This document shows positions 1 through 5,025 of a stretch of DNA of 5,025 nt, one piece after another; the stretch's first letter is position 1; each line of letters opens with the position of its first letter. The notes beneath the pieces were generated by a model, which saw only the letters and a program-made list of their open reading frames with translations, made no database searches and was not told where the DNA came from. The stretch comes from Methanosarcinales archaeon (GTDB taxonomy: Archaea > Halobacteriota > Methanosarcinia > Methanosarcinales > Methanogasteraceae). A program made the position numbers and the translations under genes. The stretch lies in the NCBI GenBank assembly GCA_030609345.1, contig JAUWCK010000104.1, positions 1 to 5,025 of the forward strand. The letters are read 5' to 3'.

Positions 1-1
1 A

Positions 2-244
2 CGGCATCCCGAACTCAAGAACTTCGATTTGGCGAATAGGATCGGTATCGCCGTCGAATCTCCTGATTATGTCGTGCAGGGGAAATTTGGCAGACATATC
101 GCTGTGAGGTCAGAGCCGATGATGCTTGGCAAGGCTAAATACATGGTTGTGATCTACGAAGATGGTGGGGAAGTGATAACAGCATTTATGACTTCAAAGA
201 TCGAAAAGATCATCAAGAGGAATGTATTATGGAAGCGATGTTAA
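2..244 (+). CDS. PBECR-like toxin-type protein, 3' part (5' end outside window)
   Basis: The frame is open from the left edge, so the true start lies upstream. The TTG at 29 would cut into conserved sequence: the residues before it read RHPELKNF, and a His-Pro-Glu segment is typical of this family. The visible 80 residues hold a 'PDYVVQGKFGRH' block, a hydrophobic strand (YMVVIYEDG), then 'VITAFMTSKIEK' and a basic C-terminus ending near VLWKR. From memory this order (HPE, PD-V-QGK, VVVY, ITAF-TS, LWK) matches small archaeal and bacterial proteins with the phage Barnase-EndoU-ColicinE5/D-RelE-like (PBECR) fold, predicted RNases often found beside DUF2283 proteins. The next gene overlaps its 3' end by 16 nt, which fits a translationally coupled toxin-antitoxin-like pair. 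Nuclease activity is inferred, and the exact family needs a profile search. Confidence 0.7.
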   Translation, partial: RHPELKNFDLANRIGIAVESPDYVVQGKFGRHIAVRSEPMMLGKAKYMVVIYEDGGEVITAFMTSKIEKIIKRNVLWKRC

Positions 245-426
245 AGGTGAAAACGGTGGAGGCTCTGGATATAGATTACGATCGTGGCAGAGACGTGCTT
301 TACATAAGTTTTGGAGCACCAACTGCCGCGGATGATGCGGAACTCCTGGATAATGATGTTATCGTGCGGTACAGACAACACCGGATGATAGGGATAACGG
401 TTCCGGATTTTTCGCGAAGAAGTTAA
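229..426 (+). CDS. DUF2283 family protein (putative antitoxin partner)
   Basis: A 65-residue protein whose core reads 'DIDYDRGRDVLYISFG', then an acidic 'AELLDNDVIVRYRQHRMIGITVPDFSRR'. This is the DUF2283 pattern: Y-D-x-x-x-D-x-L-Y-I-x-F, then a -D-x-V-I-V-x-Y- strand and a closing -I-G-I-x-x-x-x-F-S/A- strand. The family is a small beta-rich fold of unproven biochemistry, often encoded next to a DUF4258 or PBECR-type protein, so an antitoxin role is plausible. GAGG at 217-220 sits 8 nt before the ATG at 229, which supports this start over the in-frame ATG at 238. It overlaps the upstream gene by 16 nt. The C-terminus is short, ending right after the last predicted strand. The family call is firm; the function is inferred from context. 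Confidence 0.85.
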   Translation: MEAMLKVKTVEALDIDYDRGRDVLYISFGAPTAADDAELLDNDVIVRYRQHRMIGITVPDFSRRS

Positions 427-433
427 GCAGATA

Positions 434-443
434 GAGACGTCTC
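434..443. repeat. Short perfect palindrome after the DUF2283 gene
   Basis: GAGACGTCTC is a 10-bp perfect palindrome 8 nt after the DUF2283 stop. A second imperfect inverted repeat, TGCATCACCC (466-475) with GGGCGATGCA (484-493), follows and ends inside repeat copy A. Neither has a downstream T-run, so I do not call a terminator. Either could be chance. Confidence 0.3.
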
Positions 444-483
444 GATCGTAGATCGCCTGTTGTGTTGCATCACCCATCACCGA

Positions 484-660
484 GGGCGATGCATCCCAGA
501 CCAACAGCCTCCCGCCGCCTGCGCACACACCTCTGCCCGCCCCCGCTCCTGCACTTCCACGACTCCACCGGCGGCGCATCCGCCAGCGACGCGAGGCGCC
601 CCCGCCGCCCGGCTCGCATGCTGCAAGCATACCAGAGACGAATAGGCGGCGGGCGGCGAA
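484..660 (+). repeat. GC-rich dispersed repeat, copy A
   Basis: First of four related GC-rich units in the window, all in the same orientation. Shared landmarks in order are: a GGGCGATGCATCC-type start; a C-rich stretch with GCGCAC and CCCGCCCCCGCTCC; CACTTCCAC (near 553-561); CACCGGCGGCGCATCC (566-581); CGCCCGGCTCGC; and ACGAATAGGCGGCGG. The distal part can fold as a hairpin with arms CGCCGCCCG (603-611) and CGGGCGGCG (650-658). In this copy the loop is the most diverged of the four, with a local ATGCT-GCA-AGCAT palindrome. Long open frames crossing it on both strands give Pro/Arg/Ala-rich low-complexity translations, so I treat it as noncoding. The boundaries are estimated by eye from the alignment with copies B and C. 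Confidence 0.85.
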
Positions 661-710
661 GGTCAGTGGGTGCTTGCAGTGGCGTGCTCACCCCCAACCA
701 CAGAAAACCT

Positions 711-720
711 TTTCAAATAT
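711..720 (+). promoter_or_regulatory. Possible archaeal TATA box for hicBA
   Basis: TTTCAAATAT follows an A-rich stretch (GAAAACC) in the first AT-rich segment after repeat copy A. Transcription starting about 25 nt downstream would fall near 740-745, just before the hicB ATG at 753. The match to an archaeal TATA box is modest. Confidence 0.4.
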
Positions 721-739
721 CAAAAACACATCTTCAGCG

Positions 740-744
740 GGTGA
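740..744 (+). promoter_or_regulatory. Ribosome binding site of hicB
   Basis: GGTGA matches the common archaeal Shine-Dalgarno core (complement of the 16S rRNA 3' end, AUCACCUCC). It lies 8 nt before the ATG at 753, which fixes that start. Confidence 0.65.
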
Positions 745-752
745 CTTGAAAG

Positions 753-956
753 ATGAAATACAAAGTAGTGATCAGCGAAGGTGAAGATGGTTGGTATGTC
801 GTGGAATGCCCCTCCATACCCGGCTGTGTATCGCAGGGGAAGACCGTTGAAGAAGCACTGGAAAATATAAAAGATGCGATGTATGGCTGTCTGGAAGTCC
901 TGAATGAGCGCATTGAAATCAAGGGTGGTGCACGGATAATGGAAGTGGCGGTCTGA
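753..956 (+). CDS. hicB: HicB family antitoxin
   Basis: A 67-residue protein with the HicB N-terminal pattern: 'YKVVISEGEDGWYVVECPSIPGCVSQGKTVEEALENIKDAM'. The key elements are G-W-Y-V-V-E-C-P-x-I-P-G-C, then S-Q-G-x-T-x-E-E-A-L-x-N-I-x-D-A. HicB folds as a partial RNase H-like domain that binds and blocks the HicA toxin. This is the short form: it ends about 20 residues after the core and lacks the C-terminal ribbon-helix-helix or HTH DNA-binding domain of longer HicB proteins. Autoregulation is therefore less certain than for the long type. The order is hicB-hicA, the reverse of E. coli, and the stop TGA shares its A with the hicA ATG, implying tight coupling. It starts 92 nt after repeat copy A. 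Confidence 0.93.
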   Translation: MKYKVVISEGEDGWYVVECPSIPGCVSQGKTVEEALENIKDAMYGCLEVLNERIEIKGGARIMEVAV

Positions 957-1183
957 TGGCAAGATTGCCCCGGATATCGGGCATGAAAGCAGTTAAGGCT
1001 TTTTCTAAAGATGGTTGGTTCATGGCAAGGCAGACCGGCAGCCACGTCATAATGGTAAAAACCGGCTACATGGTTACGCTTTCGGTGCCAAAACACAGAG
1101 AACTTGATAGAGGTACTCTCAGAAAACTCATCAGACTCGCTGGCTTAAGTGTCGATGAATTCGTTGAGTTGCTGCGGAGATAA
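956..1183 (+). CDS. hicA: HicA family mRNA interferase toxin
   Basis: A 75-residue protein with the full HicA (YcfA) layout. 'ISGMKAVKAFSKDGWFMARQTGSHVIM' carries the G-S-H motif with the catalytic histidine at residue 30. It is followed by the strand 'YMVTLSVPKHRELDRGTLRKLIRLAGLSVDEFVELL', the typical H-x-E-L-x-x-G-T-L-x-x-I-x-x-x-A-G-L-S-x-x-E-F tail. HicA proteins have a double-stranded-RNA-binding-like fold and cleave mRNA and tmRNA independently of ribosomes; HicB neutralises them. The length is normal and all landmark residues are present, so the toxin looks intact. The start overlaps the hicB stop by one base. Only a weak purine-rich site (GGAAGTGGCGG) precedes it, consistent with translational coupling. 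No clear terminator follows before repeat copy B. Confidence 0.94.
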   Translation: MARLPRISGMKAVKAFSKDGWFMARQTGSHVIMVKTGYMVTLSVPKHRELDRGTLRKLIRLAGLSVDEFVELLRR

Positions 1184-1239
1184 GTGGGCGGTTCGACAAA
1201 AAATGCCCTCCACCCAAAATTCCATTTGCGACTCACTTT

Positions 1240-1415
1240 GGGCGACGTATCCACGCCCACCCCCGCCCGCCGCCCGTGCGCACGGGCAGCCCACCCCCGC
1301 TCCGCCCCGCACTTCCACAACCCACCGGCGGCGCAATCCCCGCGACACCACGACGCAGATGCCCGCCGCCCGGCTCGCCTGCAGCGAAGCACGCACAGCA
1401 CGAATGGGCAGCGAA
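1240..1415 (+). repeat. GC-rich dispersed repeat, copy B
   Basis: Second copy, same orientation as copy A. It opens with GGGCGACGTATCC and has a CGTGCGCACG palindrome, CCCCCGCTCC, CACTTCCACAACC, CCACCGGCGGCGC (near 1322-1334), CCGCCCGGCTCGCCTGC (1365-1381), GAAGCACGCACAGCACGAAT (1386-1405) and ends GGGCAGCGAA. The distal arms are weaker than in copy A: only TGCCC (1360-1364) with GGGCA (1406-1410). It starts 57 nt after hicA and ends about 15 nt before a clear TATA box. Pro/His/Arg-rich open frames across it are low complexity and not called. The stretch 1184-1239 before it holds no gene that I can see. Confidence 0.87.
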
Positions 1416-1430
1416 GACTCGACACACCGA

Positions 1431-1441
1431 AAATTTTATAA
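1431..1441 (+). promoter_or_regulatory. Archaeal TATA box before the tandem small genes
   Basis: AAATTTTATAA is preceded by the purine-rich CCGAA (BRE-like). The box centre is about 26 nt before the ATG at 1464, so transcription would start at or next to that ATG. That predicts a leaderless or nearly leaderless mRNA and explains the absence of a Shine-Dalgarno site there. The box begins 15 nt after the end of repeat copy B. Confidence 0.65.
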
Positions 1442-1463
1442 CGAGACTGATGTAATCAAATCT

Positions 1464-1613
1464 ATGGAATCTATGCCAGAAAAGAGGATAGTTTTAACGA
1501 TAGACCCAAATGAATTGAAGGAAGGGGTATGCAAAATATACCCATCGAAAGATGAAAAATTTGCAGTGTGTATGGAAGACGAAAAGATCAAAATCTTCCC
1601 GATCGAAGAGTGA
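1464..1613 (+). CDS. Small unknown protein, tandem copy 1 (49 aa)
   Basis: I do not recognise the family. The ATG at 1464 was chosen because the TATA box at 1431-1441 places transcription start almost exactly there. The in-frame ATG at 1473 is possible, and starts further upstream would translate the GC-rich repeat. The core reads 'RIVLTIDPNELKEGVCKIY', then 'KFAVCMEDEKIKIFPIEE', and is predicted mostly beta. It aligns with the next gene product: I-V-x-I-D-P-x-x-[LF]-K-[ED]-G-x-C-K, then K-[FY]-x-V-C-x-x-D-x-x-x-[KV]-I. Two cysteines (residues 23 and 36) are conserved between the copies. It is acidic, with no signal peptide or membrane segment. The next gene starts 14 nt after its stop, so the two are probably cotranscribed. 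Confidence 0.65.
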   Translation: MESMPEKRIVLTIDPNELKEGVCKIYPSKDEKFAVCMEDEKIKIFPIEE

Positions 1614-1614
1614 G

Positions 1615-1620
1615 AGAAGG
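1615..1620 (+). promoter_or_regulatory. Ribosome binding site of tandem copy 2
   Basis: AGAAGG lies 7 nt before the ATG at 1628. This selects 1628 over the in-frame ATG at 1568, which lies inside the preceding gene. Confidence 0.55.
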
Positions 1621-1627
1621 TATTTGG

Positions 1628-1804
1628 ATGGATGTTCTTCCCATAAACCTATCGAGAAAGACAAGCGAGATCGTTATAGATCCAACTGTTTTTAAAGATG
1701 GTGATTGCAAAGAGATTCGCGTCTGGAGTTGGAAACGGTTTAAAACGGTAAAATATGTGGTGTGCTATAAAGACGGTGAATTTGTAATATCTAAATTCGA
1801 TTGA
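1628..1804 (+). CDS. Small unknown protein, tandem copy 2 (58 aa)
   Basis: An unrecognised 58-residue protein, clearly related to the preceding one. 'EIVIDPTVFKDGDCKEIRVW' and 'VKYVVCYKDGEFVISKFD' match the IDP/K-G-C-K and V-C-x-x-D-x-x-x-x-I blocks of copy 1. It has a longer N-terminus (MDVLPINLSRKTS) and a basic/aromatic insert (WSWKRFKT) between the blocks. It is predicted to be a small beta-sheet protein without membrane segments. The pair could be diverged duplicates or a two-component system of related folds. Both cysteines (residues 27 and 46) are kept, perhaps for metal binding, but two per chain is few. The last strand (KYVVCYKDGEFVI) loosely resembles the last strand of the PBECR-like protein at the left edge (KYMVVIYEDGGEVI), probably by fold convergence. 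Confidence 0.7.
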   Translation: MDVLPINLSRKTSEIVIDPTVFKDGDCKEIRVWSWKRFKTVKYVVCYKDGEFVISKFD

Positions 1805-1961
1805 ACATGAAAATTTGATGAGTTGTGCTGCCATTGTTACATGGTTGGGCGGGGAACGTGGGCGGTCGAGTGAGTGAGCTGGTTAGAGTGTCCGAAATAT
1901 TGGTGTGCTTTAATCCTGAAGATACATCACTCGCCCAATTATCCCCCTACAAATTACCCGT
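1805..1961 (+). other. Intergenic stretch without a recognised gene
   Basis: These 157 nt lie between tandem copy 2 and repeat copy C. They include GTGGGCGGTCGA (1858-1869), close to GTGGGCGGTTCGA (1184-1196) at the corresponding place before copy B, so the repeat unit or its flank may extend further left than drawn. GAGCTGGTTAGAG (1877-1889) looks like a tRNA D-arm, but no anticodon stem or TΨC arm follows. The open frame crossing the stretch continues into the repeat and is not convincing. Confidence 0.4.
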
Positions 1962-2134
1962 GGCGGCGTATCCCCCCACCACCTGTGCACACTCGGCAGC
2001 CCGCCCCCGCCCCACTCCTTCTCACTTCCACATACCCACCGGCGGCGCATCCGCCCACGCCGCGACGCGAGACGCCCCCGCCCGGCTCGCCTGCGACGAA
2101 GCACGCACAGCACGAATAGGCGGCGGGGCGGCAA
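1962..2134 (+). repeat. GC-rich dispersed repeat, copy C
   Basis: Third copy, same orientation, and the most consensus-like. It opens with GGCGGCGTATCC and has CACCTGTGCACAC, GGCAGCCCGCCCCCGC, CACTTCCACATACCCACC, GGCGGCGCATCCGCC (2041-2055), GCGACGCGAGACGCCCC (close to copy A), CCCGGCTCGCCTGC, GAAGCACGCACAGCACGAAT and AGGCGGCGGGGCGGCAA. The distal arms CCCCGCC (2076-2082) and GGCGGGG (2122-2128) can pair across a loop whose sequence is nearly identical to that of copy B. It ends 12 nt before a TATA-like element. Confidence 0.88.
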
Positions 2135-2142
2135 GGATATGG

Positions 2143-2154
2143 AAAGTTTAAATA
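2143..2154 (+). promoter_or_regulatory. Archaeal promoter (BRE/TATA-like) before the coiled-coil gene
   Basis: AAAGTTTAAATA has its TATA part (TTTAAATA) at 2147-2154. The expected transcription start, about 25 nt downstream, is near 2175. That falls just before the ATG at 2182 and after the ATG at 2170. It sits immediately after repeat copy C, as the promoter at 1431 does after copy B. Confidence 0.6.
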
Positions 2155-2181
2155 TGCAAGATGGTATAGATGGTGCCAACA

Positions 2182-2526
2182 ATGCAAGAAGAAGTCACAT
2201 TCGGGGAAATTTTGAACATGCGCCCTGAGAAGTTCGTATTCGAGAGCAAGAAAAATATGGGCAAGATCGTATACGCGCTTGCTCATGAGATATTTGAATT
2301 GAGAAAGGAACTCGAAGAAATAAAGAGCAATAAGTCGATGGAGGTTGTAGAAAAGATCGTAGTGTTAAACGATGTTCCTTATTCAGAGGCTAAAACTATG
2401 ATAGAAGATTATTTGAAGAGCCACGAAGACGTTTATATGTATGAGATATCTAATGACTTAAGATTGGACTTAAAGATTGTACATGAAATCGTTGAGGAAC
2501 TAATTAAAGAAGATAAGGTGAAATAG
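2182..2526 (+). CDS. Unknown protein: conserved N-terminus, helical middle, winged-helix-like C-terminus
   Basis: A 114-residue protein (118 if started at the ATG at 2170). I prefer 2182: GGTG at 2172-2175 lies 6 nt upstream, and the promoter at 2143-2154 would start transcription after 2170. It begins 'MQEEVTFGEILNMRPEKFVFESKKNMGKIVYALAHEIFELRKELEEIKS', which is mostly helical with a charged, coiled-coil-like run. The C-terminal half, 'YSEAKTMIEDYLKSHEDVYMYEISNDLRLDLKIVHEIVEELIKEDKVK', has the look of a winged helix: helix, turn, then L-x-L-D-x-x-x-V-x-E-I-x-E-E-L-x-K-E-x-K-V. I recall similar hypothetical proteins from methanogen/ANME-type archaea but know no function. A small DNA-binding regulator is possible; no catalytic motif is visible. 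It is AT-rich in codon use like its neighbours and unlike the adjoining repeat. Confidence 0.8.
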   Translation: MQEEVTFGEILNMRPEKFVFESKKNMGKIVYALAHEIFELRKELEEIKSNKSMEVVEKIVVLNDVPYSEAKTMIEDYLKSHEDVYMYEISNDLRLDLKIVHEIVEELIKEDKVK

Positions 2527-2535
2527 GTGGTTTTC

Positions 2536-2721
2536 ATGCCGATATGTAGGAACAAAGGAGATGCCATAGAAGGAGATGTGATAACCTGTCAGGCACGGAA
2601 ATATGAGACGCTGGTGATAAAAGGAAGTGGGGCACATAGAGCCGCAAGGATTAAATTAAGCGGTAGAGGTAGGACTTCTGCATATTGTGTGATAGATAAA
2701 CCGCTGAAATGGATAAAATAG
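2536..2721 (+). CDS. Small hypothetical protein (61 aa), weakly supported
   Basis: GGTGG at 2526-2530 lies 5 nt before the ATG at 2536. The ORF starts 9 nt after the upstream stop, so it could be the second gene of that operon; GTG at 2527 is an alternative start. The product is basic: 'MPICRNKGDAIEGDVITCQARKYETLVIKGSGAHRAARIKLSGRGRTSAYCVIDKPLKWIK'-like in order, with three cysteines and no recognised motif. The alternation of hydrophobic strands with Gly/Arg turns would fit a small beta protein. It ends in TAG, followed at once by an ATG that continues in the same frame to 3084. I do not recognise it. Confidence 0.4.
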   Translation: MPICRNKGDAIEGDVITCQARKYETLVIKGSGAHRAARIKLSGRGRTSAYCVIDKPLKWIK

Positions 2722-3084
2722 ATGGATCGTGTCTTAATATGGAAAGCTGCGATGCGATCAGAACCAACAGCCCATAGCTTATGGCAAGACAAGAGAATAT
2801 CAGGATTCAGAACAATAGCTGCAGTTGCAGTATTGTCAGCAGTGGCTTATTTTGAGAGGGGGACTGAAATAAAACAAGGGCGCTCGATTCTCTATGCAAA
2901 TCACATGGGGCGGCGCATCCGCCCGGCTCGCCTGCAACGAGTACGCACGGCACGAATAGGTGGCGGCGGGGCGGCGAATACACACAACGCCCGAGCCGCA
3001 AGCAATATATCATCGCAAGCAAAAGCAGCATACGAATGCCATATGCCTATAGGCATGAAAATAGCGAAGTATCTTCAGAGTTAA
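2722..3084 (+). CDS. Doubtful ORF carrying repeat copy D in frame
   Basis: The frame is open for 120 codons directly after the TAG of the previous ORF, with no ribosome site of its own. Codons 1-60 include 'FRTIAAVAVLSAVAYFE', a short hydrophobic stretch. Codons 62-86 are the translation of repeat copy D (Arg/Gly/Ala-rich, low complexity). The tail (AASNISSQAKAAYECHMPIGMKIAKYLQS) resembles nothing I know. The repeat in the middle argues that this is intergenic DNA or a decayed gene interrupted by the repeat. I list it so that 2722-3085 is accounted for, not because I believe it is translated. Confidence 0.15.
   Translation: MDRVLIWKAAMRSEPTAHSLWQDKRISGFRTIAAVAVLSAVAYFERGTEIKQGRSILYANHMGRRIRPARLQRVRTARIGGGGAANTHNARAASNISSQAKAAYECHMPIGMKIAKYLQS
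2907..2978 (+). repeat. GC-rich dispersed repeat, copy D (short form)
   Basis: Only the distal part of the unit is present: GGGGCGGCGCATCCGCC joins directly to CGGCTCGCCTGC, then ACGAGTACGCACGGCACGAAT, AGGTGGCGGCGGGGCGGCGAA. The C-rich first half and the segment between GCATCCGCC and CCCGGCTCGCC are missing. Arms CCGCCC (2919-2924) and GGGCGG (2969-2974) can still pair. It has the same orientation as copies A-C and lies about 107 nt before the HEPN gene. The missing part is explained by recombination between the direct repeats inside the full unit (see findings). Confidence 0.85.
3043..3056. promoter_or_regulatory. 14-bp perfect palindrome upstream of the HEPN/MNT operon
   Basis: ATGCCTATAGGCAT is self-complementary over all 14 bases. 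A partial extra half-site, ATGCC at 3036-3040, precedes it. It ends 29 nt before the HEPN ATG, a normal place for a toxin-antitoxin operator. The regulatory role is inference. A possible TATA element (AATATATC, 3004-3011) lies about 35 nt upstream of it. Confidence 0.45.
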
Positions 3085-3085
3085 C

Positions 3086-3452
3086 ATGAAACCAGAAGTC
3101 AAGAATTGGTTGGAACAAGCAGAACACGACATAGACGTCGCAGAATATAATTTTGACGGAAATATGCTGGATGCTGCTGCTTTTTATTCGCAGCAAGCAG
3201 TGGAAAAGGCATTGAAATCGCTATACCTCTTGAAGTTTAACGAACTGTGGAGGGTGCATGATCTGGTGAGAATCGCAAAAGAGGGTTGAAGCACCGACTA
3301 AAATTGTCAGATTATGTGCAAAAATTACTCCTGCATATACCAGCACTCGATATCCCGATGTCTGTAACGAATATGACCGTAGAGATGTGGAAGAGATTTT
3401 GATGGGTGCAAAGGAGGTACTGGAATGGGTGAAGATAAATCTAAACTTATAA
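3086..3452 (+). pseudogene. HEPN-domain (HepT-like) protein, frameshifted
   Basis: The first 66 codons give 'MKPEVKNWLEQAEHDIDVAEYNFDGNMLDAAAFYSQQAVEKALKSLYLLK...WRVHDLVRIAKE', a textbook PF05168-type HEPN N-terminus (W-L-x-x-A-x-x-D-x-x-x-A, F-x-x-Q-Q-A-x-E-K-A-L-K, H-D-L). The frame then hits TGA at 3287-3289. Moving one base within the GGG at 3283-3285 restores 'VEAPTKIVRLCAKITPAYTSTRYPDVCNEYDRRDVEEILMGAKEVLEWVK', the expected second half with its TRYPD block, ending at 3452. The joined product is about 121 residues, normal for the family, so a single extra G explains everything. It may be a real inactivating mutation, a sequencing error or a slippage site. HEPN proteins are RNases or their partners. 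After TRYPD I see no His in the usual R-x4-6-H spacing, so activity is uncertain even if repaired. The restored frame overlaps the MNT gene by 28 nt. Confidence 0.85.
3411..3418 (+). promoter_or_regulatory. Strong ribosome binding site of the MNT gene
   Basis: AAGGAGGT, an almost complete anti-Shine-Dalgarno match, lies 6 nt before the ATG at 3425. It is inside the HEPN reading frame, so the antitoxin can be translated efficiently regardless of the upstream frameshift. Confidence 0.75.
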
Positions 3453-3745
3453 AAGCGTTAAGAGCGTTTAAAGATATTATCTGCCAAAAATACGATATAA
3501 AAGAGGTGATATTATTTGGCTCTCAGGTGAGTGGAACGGCGGATAAGGATAGCGATGTTGATTTAATCGTGGTTGGCGATGAGTTTAGGGATAAAAGCCC
3601 GCTAAAAAGACCTTTTGACCTCTACCTGGAATGGACGATGGATTATCCAGTAGATTTTCTATGCTACACGCCAGAAGAATTTGAAGAGAAGCGAAATGAG
3701 ATAAGTATTGTTCGTCATGCGATAAACGAGGGAATTGCAATTTGA
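3425..3745 (+). CDS. MNT-type minimal nucleotidyltransferase (HEPN partner, MntA-like)
   Basis: A 106-residue protein with an intact polymerase-beta-like core. 'VILFGSQVSGTADKDSDVDLIVV' holds the G-S motif (residues 32-33) and the paired metal-binding aspartates D44 and D46. The third acidic residue is D77 in 'YPVDFLCYT'. It begins with a helical segment (KLIKALRAFKDIICQKYDIKE) and ends with a short helix. Family members are encoded next to HEPN proteins. In characterised pairs (MntA/HepT) the transferase AMPylates the HEPN toxin and so neutralises it. The ATG at 3425 is supported by AAGGAGGT 6 nt upstream. Partner contact is expected from the gene overlap. It is intact while its HEPN partner is frameshifted, the pattern expected if the toxin is lost first. 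Confidence 0.92.
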   Translation: MGEDKSKLIKALRAFKDIICQKYDIKEVILFGSQVSGTADKDSDVDLIVVGDEFRDKSPLKRPFDLYLEWTMDYPVDFLCYTPEEFEEKRNEISIVRHAINEGIAI

Positions 3746-3753
3746 TAGGTTGA

Positions 3754-4014
3754 TACGACGCTGTCTCTTCAAAAAATGTTTTGTATTCGGAATATCTAAC
3801 TTGCTACAAGTGTGGATACCCTCTACATTCCAAACTCATAGGAAACTCGCCCGATGGCATTCGCCAGCCGCCCACACAGGGATTTCCGGACTTGCAGTCC
3901 AAGGCGTGGCACGGTCGGGGCGAGGGCGCCACGATGAACGCAGAGGTCAAGACGCCCCTCGCACGGGCAATGTGTTATCAACACCTCGCGGTAGCAGCGA
4001 TACCACAACCTTGA
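3754..4014 (+). other. Open frame with coding-like third positions; possible gene remnant
   Basis: No good start is visible: the TTG at 3781 is the first candidate and has no clear ribosome site. From about 3840 onward the frame has G/C-rich third positions like the downstream marker 9 gene and unlike the AT-rich island genes. The product reads 'YSEYLTCYKCGYPLHSKLIG', then a Pro/Gly-rich stretch, then 'ATMNAEVKTPLARAMCYQHLAVAAIPQP' and stop. It has one CxxC (CYKC) and no second metal pair. This could be the tail of a decayed gene, a small protein, or the 5' region of the next gene; I do not recognise it. The other overlapping frame (3735-4067) gives an Arg-rich translation and is rejected. 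Confidence 0.25.
3888..4004 (+). other. Cluster of short inverted repeats upstream of the marker 9 gene
   Basis: Four inverted repeats follow one another. They are GGACT-TGC-AGTCC (3888-3900), GGGGCG (3917-3922) with CGCCCC (3953-3958), GTGTT-ATC-AACAC (3972-3984), and GGTA (3990-3993) with TACC (4001-4004). They end about 50 nt before the marker 9 start. They could form a structured leader or separate RNA, but no known riboswitch or ncRNA motif is recognised and stems this short arise by chance. Confidence 0.25.
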
Positions 4015-4040
4015 TATGCCCATCTTCCGATGTCAGCAGA

Positions 4041-4046
4041 GAGAGG
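4041..4046 (+). promoter_or_regulatory. Ribosome binding site deciding the TTG start of the marker 9 gene
   Basis: GAGAGG lies 7 nt before TTG at 4054. The only ATG upstream of the conserved region (4030, in frame) has no such site, so TTG is the better start. Confidence 0.55.
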
Positions 4047-4053
4047 CGTTTAT

Positions 4054-5025
4054 TTGACCGAATTTGACATACACGTTGGCTACACACACATCAAAAATCC
4101 GATCGCGCTTGCTCCGATGGCAGGCATCACAAACATCGATTTTGTCAGGGATCACGCAATGAGCGCAGGGCTTGCCGTGATCGGTGGATACAATCTGGAC
4201 GATGCGACAAACGAGGCAGCGAGGAACATTAACGAGCGCGGGCGTGCTGAATGTGTGACACCCGAGCCGATTGAACATCTGCGAAGCGAACTCGAGCGCT
4301 TGGAAGGGATGGATGACCCCCCCACAATCACACTCACCGTCAGAAGCACAGAAATTACGCCGCTAATGGAGGCAGCACTTCTTGCAAAGGAGTATAGCGC
4401 GATTCTTGAGATCGATTGTCATTGCCGACAGCCGGAGATGTCAGATATCGGCGTGGGCGAACCTCTTCTTCACGATTTGCAGAAACTTGGATCGATCATC
4501 TCGAAGATCAAGAAGACGGGGGTTGTCCTCTCTGTAAAGACCAGATCCGGAATCGTTGATGACCGCGAACTTGCGGTGGCGATCGAGGAGGCAGGCGCGG
4601 ATATGATCCACATCGATGCTATGGAACCCGGATTCGGTGCTGACTATAATGCGGTCAAGGCGGTAAGGAATGCCACCGATCTCTTTATCATAGGCAACAA
4701 TTCAGTCACGGATTTCAGAAGCGCAAAGGATATGTTCGGACACGGTGCAGACATGGTCTCGCTTGCGCGAGCCGTGCCCAAGATTCCCGGAGTGATAGAT
4801 GACCTTGTCCGCTCTGTCACCACCTTTCAGAAGCAGACCGGCTGGTACAATGCGCCAAAGCACATCTGCAGCGGGGGAGACGACCGGGCACTCACGTTCT
4901 GCTGCCTGCCTGTCAAGCGGTGTGCGATCCAGCGGGTGCTCCGCAGGTACGGGATGACGCCGCAGGAGTTTGCAGACTTGAAGATCGAACTCTCACGCGG
5001 AACACCGCTCGAACTTGGGGATAAC
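4054..5025 (+). CDS. Dus/NifR3-like barrel with methanogenesis marker 9 domain (3' end outside window)
   Basis: The frame is open to the right edge (324 codons seen). Residues 15-24, 'NPIALAPMAG', are the N-terminal flavin-binding signature of the dihydrouridine synthase/NifR3 TIM barrel. Later barrel landmarks are 'IDCHCRQPEM' (120-129, where Dus enzymes have their catalytic-Cys N-x-GCP motif), 'SVKTRSG' (160-166, the V-K-x-R strand), 'DMIHIDA' (183-189), 'IIGNNS' (212-217) and 'GADMVSLARA'. The usual GCP signature is replaced by C-x-C, so tRNA-uridine reduction is doubtful. After residue 270 comes 'ICSGGDDRALTFCCLPVKRC'. The FCC-x3-K-x-C block matches the first of the two [WFY]CC-x3-KPC motifs of the marker 9 domain, here with Arg for Pro; the second would lie beyond the window. 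The family tracks with methanogenesis but its function is unknown. An ATG at 4030 would add 8 residues; TTG 4054 has the ribosome site. Codon use differs from the AT-rich island, consistent with a resident gene. Confidence 0.9.
   Translation, partial: MTEFDIHVGYTHIKNPIALAPMAGITNIDFVRDHAMSAGLAVIGGYNLDDATNEAARNINERGRAECVTPEPIEHLRSELERLEGMDDPPTITLTVRSTEITPLMEAALLAKEYSAILEIDCHCRQPEMSDIGVGEPLLHDLQKLGSIISKIKKTGVVLSVKTRSGIVDDRELAVAIEEAGADMIHIDAMEPGFGADYNAVKAVRNATDLFIIGNNSVTDFRSAKDMFGHGADMVSLARAVPKIPGVIDDLVRSVTTFQKQTGWYNAPKHICSGGDDRALTFCCLPVKRCAIQRVLRRYGMTPQEFADLKIELSRGTPLELGDN

Follow-up and report, generated by a model that had tools for sequence, protein, structure and literature searches.

Among platforms for the storage and shuffling of small gene modules, integrons are the standard example, and their attC sites carry the core motif pair RYYYAAC ... 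GTTRRRY. Archaeal defense or dark-matter islands hold mobile small toxin-antitoxin genes at variable loci, and repetitive extragenic palindromes and miniature inverted-repeat transposable elements (REP/MITE) are short, GC-rich, non-coding repeats located between genes. Integrons were reported in 75 archaeal metagenome-assembled genomes (MAGs), mostly as clusters of attC sites lacking a nearby integrase (CALINs), in a study whose main text does not contain the terms Halobacteriota, Methanosarcin, or ANME (anaerobic methanotrophic archaea) (PMC9668308). In this study, a 5,025-nt stretch of DNA from a Methanosarcinales archaeon (contig JAUWCK010000104.1; hereafter, the window), in which GC-rich repeats separate small gene modules, was compared with related genomes. 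Units consisting of a repeat and a module recur in differing order and at several chromosomal sites, and they have been exchanged laterally, even between families. The titles and abstract openings of the literature searched describe no such array, and a description beyond them is possible.

A first-pass annotation of the window, made from its sequence alone, had described four same-strand GC-rich repeats between small gene modules of a common orientation. Both points were borne out: three repeats are full (A, B, and C) and one is partial (D), and the genes named in that annotation all lie on the plus strand, as the repeats do. The pattern CCCGGCTCGCMTGC-N15..24-ACGAATRGG, which was derived from the four window copies themselves, matched the window four times, always on the plus strand (608, 1369, 2081, and 2922), and was present in 0 of 200 dinucleotide shuffles. 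An iterated profile gave near-full-length matches for A, B, and C (505–652, 1264–1413, and 1971–2126, respectively), and matched D at 2902–2966 over model positions 91–156 only. The 5′ half, with CACTTCCAC, is missing from D, which is therefore a fragment. The full repeat unit is about 165–190 bp long, GC-rich and C-rich, with GGCGGCG present at both ends. The mean G+C content of 38 copies was 73% (C 46%, G 26%) versus approximately 45% in the modules. The strand asymmetry (C > G) was strong in the repeats, as seen across window positions 484–2136, and the modules did not resemble them in this respect.

The DNA between the 38 repeats was clustered, and merged clusters were split by hand. The resulting arrays (L numbers; genomes are given G numbers) differed in module order (Table 1). 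A hand count that includes L021 and L023 gave 27 module-module junctions of 25 kinds, and only 0b-1b and 1b-2 were found in two genomes. Most modules were toxin-antitoxin-like two-gene pairs on the same strand as the repeat. The earlier proposal of a recombination-assembled or integron-type array was therefore supported in its first part, because modules were reordered between genomes with one orientation per contig, and unsupported in its second, because the tests described below for the attC motif, for folding, for linkage of the site to its cassette, and for an integrase all failed.

Module identity was compared with that of two core genes (HK and the dihydrouridine-synthase-like gene DUS) in the same genome pairs, using best local alignments, some of which were short; of 41 module pairs, the DUS value was absent for 13 and the HK value for 21. 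Modules were more alike than the HK gene in all 20 pairs with an HK value (means of 89.7 and 71.0%, respectively) and more alike than DUS in 21 of 28 pairs (means of 92.0 and 82.0%, respectively). In one example of this contrast, the module was 96% identical and the core genes 64–71%. Between G036 and other genomes, modules were 86–96% identical versus 62–72% for core genes, with the exception of module 0c compared with G002 (68%). Modules 1b and 2 of G007, which belongs to another family, were 86–93% identical to the copies in the family of G003. The left flank of the G007 array matched its own kin, G004 (91%) and G006 (88%), and none of 17 genomes of the G003 family, and its right flank matched G004 and G006 (both 91%) on contigs other than those of the left flank, so that this array lies at a rearrangement or a misjoin. 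The higher identity of modules than of core genes, together with the presence of two module kinds in a genome of another family, demonstrates lateral exchange.

The arrays border different chromosomal genes. At the HK gene, G003 and G031 carry arrays whose last modules differ, and no array was present in the stretch compared in G001, G028, G029, and G032. At the DUS site of the window, a different module is present in G027 together with the middle part of a repeat, G032 has a stretch resembling the tail of the HEPN/MNT module, and the repeat was absent from G001, G003, G028, and G031. The repeats at array ends were cut at varying points: of the 201 model positions, end repeats stop at 73, 174, and 179 (L019, L044, and L022, respectively), and first repeats begin at 66, 94, and 95. 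Left of the L019 array, a stretch that is dispersed and at most about 280 bp long (17117–17396) was found to be 79–95% alike in eight other genomes of the family, and its counterpart in G036 is located left of the L040 array.

Of 185 genomes from the order, 10 contained relatives of the repeat, with few candidates scored per genome; eight of the ten belong to one 17-genome family, and G004 and G007 lie outside it. When the genome_contigs collection was searched for the exact pattern, four hits were obtained: one in an ANME-2 archaeon, two in Methanosarcinales MAGs, and one in a Burkholderiales MAG (L001), the last of which had no profile support and was taken as a chance match. A profile search of the 10 genomes, in which at most 150 first-look candidates were scored per genome, yielded 36 matches in nine; G027 had a 44-base blastn match and zero matches with the profile model. 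The matches were on a single contig in eight of the nine genomes and on five contigs in G002. The longest array, L040, has ten copies within about 7.5 kb. A phylum-wide scan of 392 genomes drawn evenly returned G003 and two marginal matches, and was insensitive because only six candidates per genome were scored and the filters were stricter.

Recording the orientation of every copy in relatives had been suggested as a check on the window, and it gave a uniform picture: 32 of the 36 profile matches lie in arrays on nine contigs with 2–10 copies, every contig having one orientation. This result bears on the idea, also raised in the first-pass annotation, of a mobile, REP/MITE-like repeat with intergenic insertion, to which an assembly artifact may be added. 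GC-rich repeated intergenic DNA in draft MAGs, the four lone copies (G004:C4, G032:C95, G002:C40, and, at a contig end, G002:C1), and the G007 array joining two regions that are apart in its kin would fit such an origin. However, the copies are neither scattered nor of mixed orientation, modules rather than the repeat alone recur at new places, and separate assemblies have modules in common, so that this explanation is barely credible. Within L046 8430–10572, the lone G004 repeat follows genes for a D12-class adenine methyltransferase and an EcoRV-like endonuclease, all on one strand, with this restriction-modification pair occupying the module position.

For an attC-like site that travels with its module, copies with a common module would be expected to share their repeat. 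Among 25 full-length copies, linkage to the left module was confined to the 5′ edge of the repeat (0 of 2000 permutations), the 3′ edge was weakly associated with the right module (0.04), and interior segments showed no significant linkage to either (0.07 to 0.63), the power of the test being limited by fast repeat divergence. Pairwise bins were broadly consistent with this permutation test. Module homology fades near both repeat edges: module 2 was 97.8% identical and its adjoining repeat 85.9%, and module 5 was 96% identical and its repeats 84–88.5%. Repeats on the same contig were only slightly more alike than other repeats.

With modest confidence, we regard these loci as repeat-bounded cassette arrays of ANME-2/Methanosarcinales that are exchanged by recombination inside the repeats, which we infer to be homologous. 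The array unit consists, in this order, of a GC-rich repeat, a short leader, and a small gene module on the same strand, and the repeats would act as portable homology. Incoming repeat-module-repeat DNA could recombine anywhere inside the repeats, by RadA-type homologous recombination or gene conversion. Such recombination would keep the orientation, swap modules whole, scramble the repeat, and leave truncated repeats at array ends, and the toxin-antitoxin content would protect the arrays from loss. More tentatively, the arrays may represent a gene-capture platform of ANME archaea unrelated to integrons, in which long non-palindromic GC-rich repeats with a common leader either provide portable homology or are the sites at which an unknown enzyme acts, and toxin-antitoxin and other defense modules are swapped between species and families.

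Several points weigh against recombination inside the repeats. No single gain or loss event was seen between close strains, nor was a clean empty site with both flanks, those of G007 being on different contigs in G004 and G006. In 7 of the 28 pairs, DUS identity exceeded that of the module, and the fusion in L021 and the partial module in L023 are joins that ignore the repeat. Over all 38 copies, interior excesses of about +8 points (columns 119–147) and up to +10 points (columns 182–231) were observed for same-left and same-right pairs, respectively, neither of which was significant in the 25 full-length copies; these small excesses may mark a preferred crossover zone. At the two junctions with both sides in common, repeat identities of 90.4% (L041_r3/L044_r1) and 81.8% (L041_r2/L040_r3) straddle the all-pair median of 85.4%. 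The enzyme for the exchange is one that we infer, and fast repeat evolution might be another cause of the loss of linkage inside the repeat. Because this loss is explicable by either process, we state the exchange itself firmly and its mechanism conditionally.

A dedicated site-specific recombinase or transposase of an unrecognized type, encoded elsewhere or on a vector, might instead cut at or near the repeat edges and move the modules, consistent with the end of module homology near both edges and the single orientation per contig. Matches to the tyrosine recombinase family PF00589 occurred in 7 of the 10 repeat-bearing genomes, and 9 of 10 other genomes tested had them as well. G001, G003, and G036, which are MAGs and may be incomplete, gave none with this generic rather than IntI-specific model; on repeat-bearing contigs, the sole case was a broken match located about 9 kb from the lone G004 repeat. 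The resolvase family PF00239 was present in 4 of 10 repeat-bearing versus 0 of 9 repeat-free genomes, never on a repeat-bearing contig. IS200/IS605-type Y1 transposases (PF01797) occurred in 17 of 19 genomes; the 10 repeat-bearing genomes accounted for 61 matches and the 9 repeat-free genomes for 15, and one match lies 3.6 kb from the G007 array. These distributions of PF00239 and PF01797 leave room for a dedicated enzyme. However, none of the three families searched occurred in all repeat-bearing genomes and in no others, PF00239 being missing from six of the ten (again with possible incompleteness) and Y1 transposases being found in seven of the nine repeat-free genomes, and the array-end breakpoints are variable; we consider such an enzyme unlikely. 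The search for a nearby integrase or transposase recommended by the annotation revealed none common to the array genomes, and no recombinase was detected among the module and flank proteins scanned. As for a viral vector, no viral contig carried the exact repeat pattern, a viral search with two module proteins gave 21 and 5 pattern stretches, none of which was confirmed, and window positions 484–2978 had no match in plasmid or phage records.

A diverged integron, that is, a CALIN moved in trans by IntI, would account for co-oriented cassettes of 0.5–1 kb that are rich in toxin-antitoxin genes and differ in order between genomes, as was found here, and the archaeal integrons in print are mostly CALINs (PMC9668308). 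On the other hand, the absence of canonical attC boxes noted in the first-pass annotation was confirmed in all repeats: the RYYYAAC/GTTRRRY pair occurred in 0 of 38 (45-nt margins, both orientations), an absence that is weak by itself because only 0.1 was expected by chance. DNA folding of 25 full-length copies was no better than that of shuffles (mean z of −0.63 and −0.41 for the top and bottom strands, respectively), and 23 aligned copies gave 11 consensus pairs, one with a both-sided change, and a covariation term of +0.64, providing no covariation support. In addition, the repeat has no clear linkage to its cassette, and no tyrosine recombinase match was found in the genome with the longest array, a possibly incomplete MAG. 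An integron origin is therefore very improbable. Two further candidates were rejected: a structured RNA (best Rfam E-value of 0.99; folding z of −0.48, −1.73, and +0.91; covariation unsupportive) and a G-quadruplex (bottom strand, 3 of 38 copies versus 2.8 expected; top strand, 0 of 38). With regard to the terminal inverted repeats and target-site duplications of REP/MITE elements, the repeat shows outer CCGCC..GGCGG complementarity, and there was no clean empty site in which to inspect target-site duplication.

A common leader with a TATA-like stretch lies at +9 to +30 after the repeat in 18 of 38 copies (agreement at no fewer than 21 of 29 positions with a consensus drawn by eye from the same sequences), precedes eight different kinds of module, and may be a promoter. 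This arrangement and the strand bias of the repeat would suit a regulatory spacer of toxin-antitoxin modules (terminator, insulator, or upstream element), with reordering by ordinary lateral transfer in a region resembling a defense island. A crude scan for the B recognition element and TATA box, however, gave p 0.05 versus shuffles in only 2 of 38 copies, and a spacer leaves the module ends at the repeat, the partial repeats at array ends, and the arrays at several loci unexplained. We judge it improbable as the sole explanation; because the repeat stands just before the leader in 18 copies, a regulatory role besides recombination is conceivable.

The module contents assigned to the window in the first-pass annotation were largely supported. 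The adjacent genes at 753–1183 encode HicA (E-value of 4.6e-16) and HicB-like (1.2e-9) domains, as in a HicAB toxin-antitoxin pair, and the tandem pair described as unknown (module 4) had no match in Pfam. For the PBECR-like/DUF2283 module, the DUF2283 gene was verified, whereas the PBECR similarity was weak (E-value of 0.012, below the Pfam cut-off, with the longer L042 copy; the window piece had no match). For the HEPN/MNT module, MNT held, whereas HEPN is present in the window as a broken frame, with 67 amino acids covering 61 of 117 domain positions; the frame at 3086–3420 stops after these residues, and the L019 counterpart has 157 residues with a nearly whole domain. The homology of module 2 ends at about 456 relative to L041 and L044 and at about 497 relative to L042 and L043. 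Neither module 3 protein had a match in Pfam; the 118-residue protein has 24 relatives at E ≤ 0.001, and the four named by organism are all archaeal (Euryarchaeota, Methanophagales, and two ANME-1). At 12906–13975 of L021, a hicAB pair is fused to the tail of a protease-like module, with the repeat absent between them. The flanking gene at 4030–5025 is presumably a dihydrouridine synthase.

Table 1. Features of the window, module order of the arrays (left to right), and module contents
Feature	Position	Strand	Content or order	Basis or occurrence elsewhere
Module 2	1–456	+	Weakly PBECR2-like protein (cut by window start); DUF2283 gene 229–426	Pfam; comparison with copies elsewhere
Repeat A	484–662	+		Pattern and profile
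Module 0a	663–1239	+	hicB 753–956; hicA 956–1183	Pfam; also L019, L020, L040, neighbors differ
Repeat B	1240–1415	+		Pattern and profile
Module 4	1416–1954	+	Tandem small pair 1464–1613, 1628–1804, no match in Pfam	Pfam; also L040, L041
Repeat C	1955–2136	+		Pattern and profile
Module 3	2137–2901	+	118-aa protein 2170–2526; 64-aa protein 2527–2721; no match in Pfam	Pfam; also L042, L022
Repeat D, 5′-truncated	2902–2978	+		Pattern and profile
Module 1a	2979–3862	+	Common leader; HEPN 3086–3289 (frame broken); MNT nucleotidyltransferase 3425–3745	Pfam; also L019, L020
Right array edge	3863–3886		From here, matches chromosomal DNA of genomes repeat-free at that place	Sequence comparison
Chromosomal flank	4030–5025	+	Dihydrouridine-synthase-like gene (DUS)	Single match per genome, in 13 of the 17 genomes of the family
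Array, window			2-0a-4-3-1a	
Array L042			2-3-1b	
Array L041			4-0b-1b-2	
Array L020			8-5-1a-9-0a	
Array L040			0a-0b-1b-5-4-11-6-0c-0d-2	
Array L019			0a-13-1a	
Array L044			1b-2	
Modules 0b, 0d, 1b			hicAB pairs, as in 0a	Pfam
Module 5			HicA and partner without assignment	Pfam
Module 11			DUF4258 and zinc-finger-like partner (partner below cut-off)	Pfam
Module 9			DUF4258 and zinc-finger-like partner (both below cut-off)	Pfam
Modules 0c, 6			DUF5678 and protease-like partner (below cut-off)	Pfam
Module 8			PIN	Pfam
Module 13			Nitroreductase	Pfam

The arrays share with archaeal defense or dark-matter islands the collection of mobile small toxin-antitoxin genes at variable loci, and differ from them in that a specific repeat bounds every module and sets its orientation. 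Like REP/MITE elements, the repeats are short, GC-rich, non-coding, and intergenic; unlike them, nearly all copies are in arrays with one orientation per contig, around which unrelated modules are reordered. The likeness to integron/CALIN arrays consists in same-oriented, small, mostly toxin-antitoxin modules with a repeated site between them and an order that differs between genomes. In contrast to those arrays, the ANME repeat has neither the attC core motif nor its fold and is not clearly carried with the cassette, the array genomes have no common integrase, and the array-end breakpoints are not at one base. The output is integron-like, and the defining integron parts tested are absent. There is a fair chance that the ANME arrays are a kind of their own, apart from known cassette arrays. 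Since the repeat is easily recognized, they can be detected and tracked across ANME metagenomes, and they would give uncultured methane oxidizers a route for trading defense and stabilizing genes. An archaeal array with the output of an integron and without its parts would show a second route to cassette arrays.

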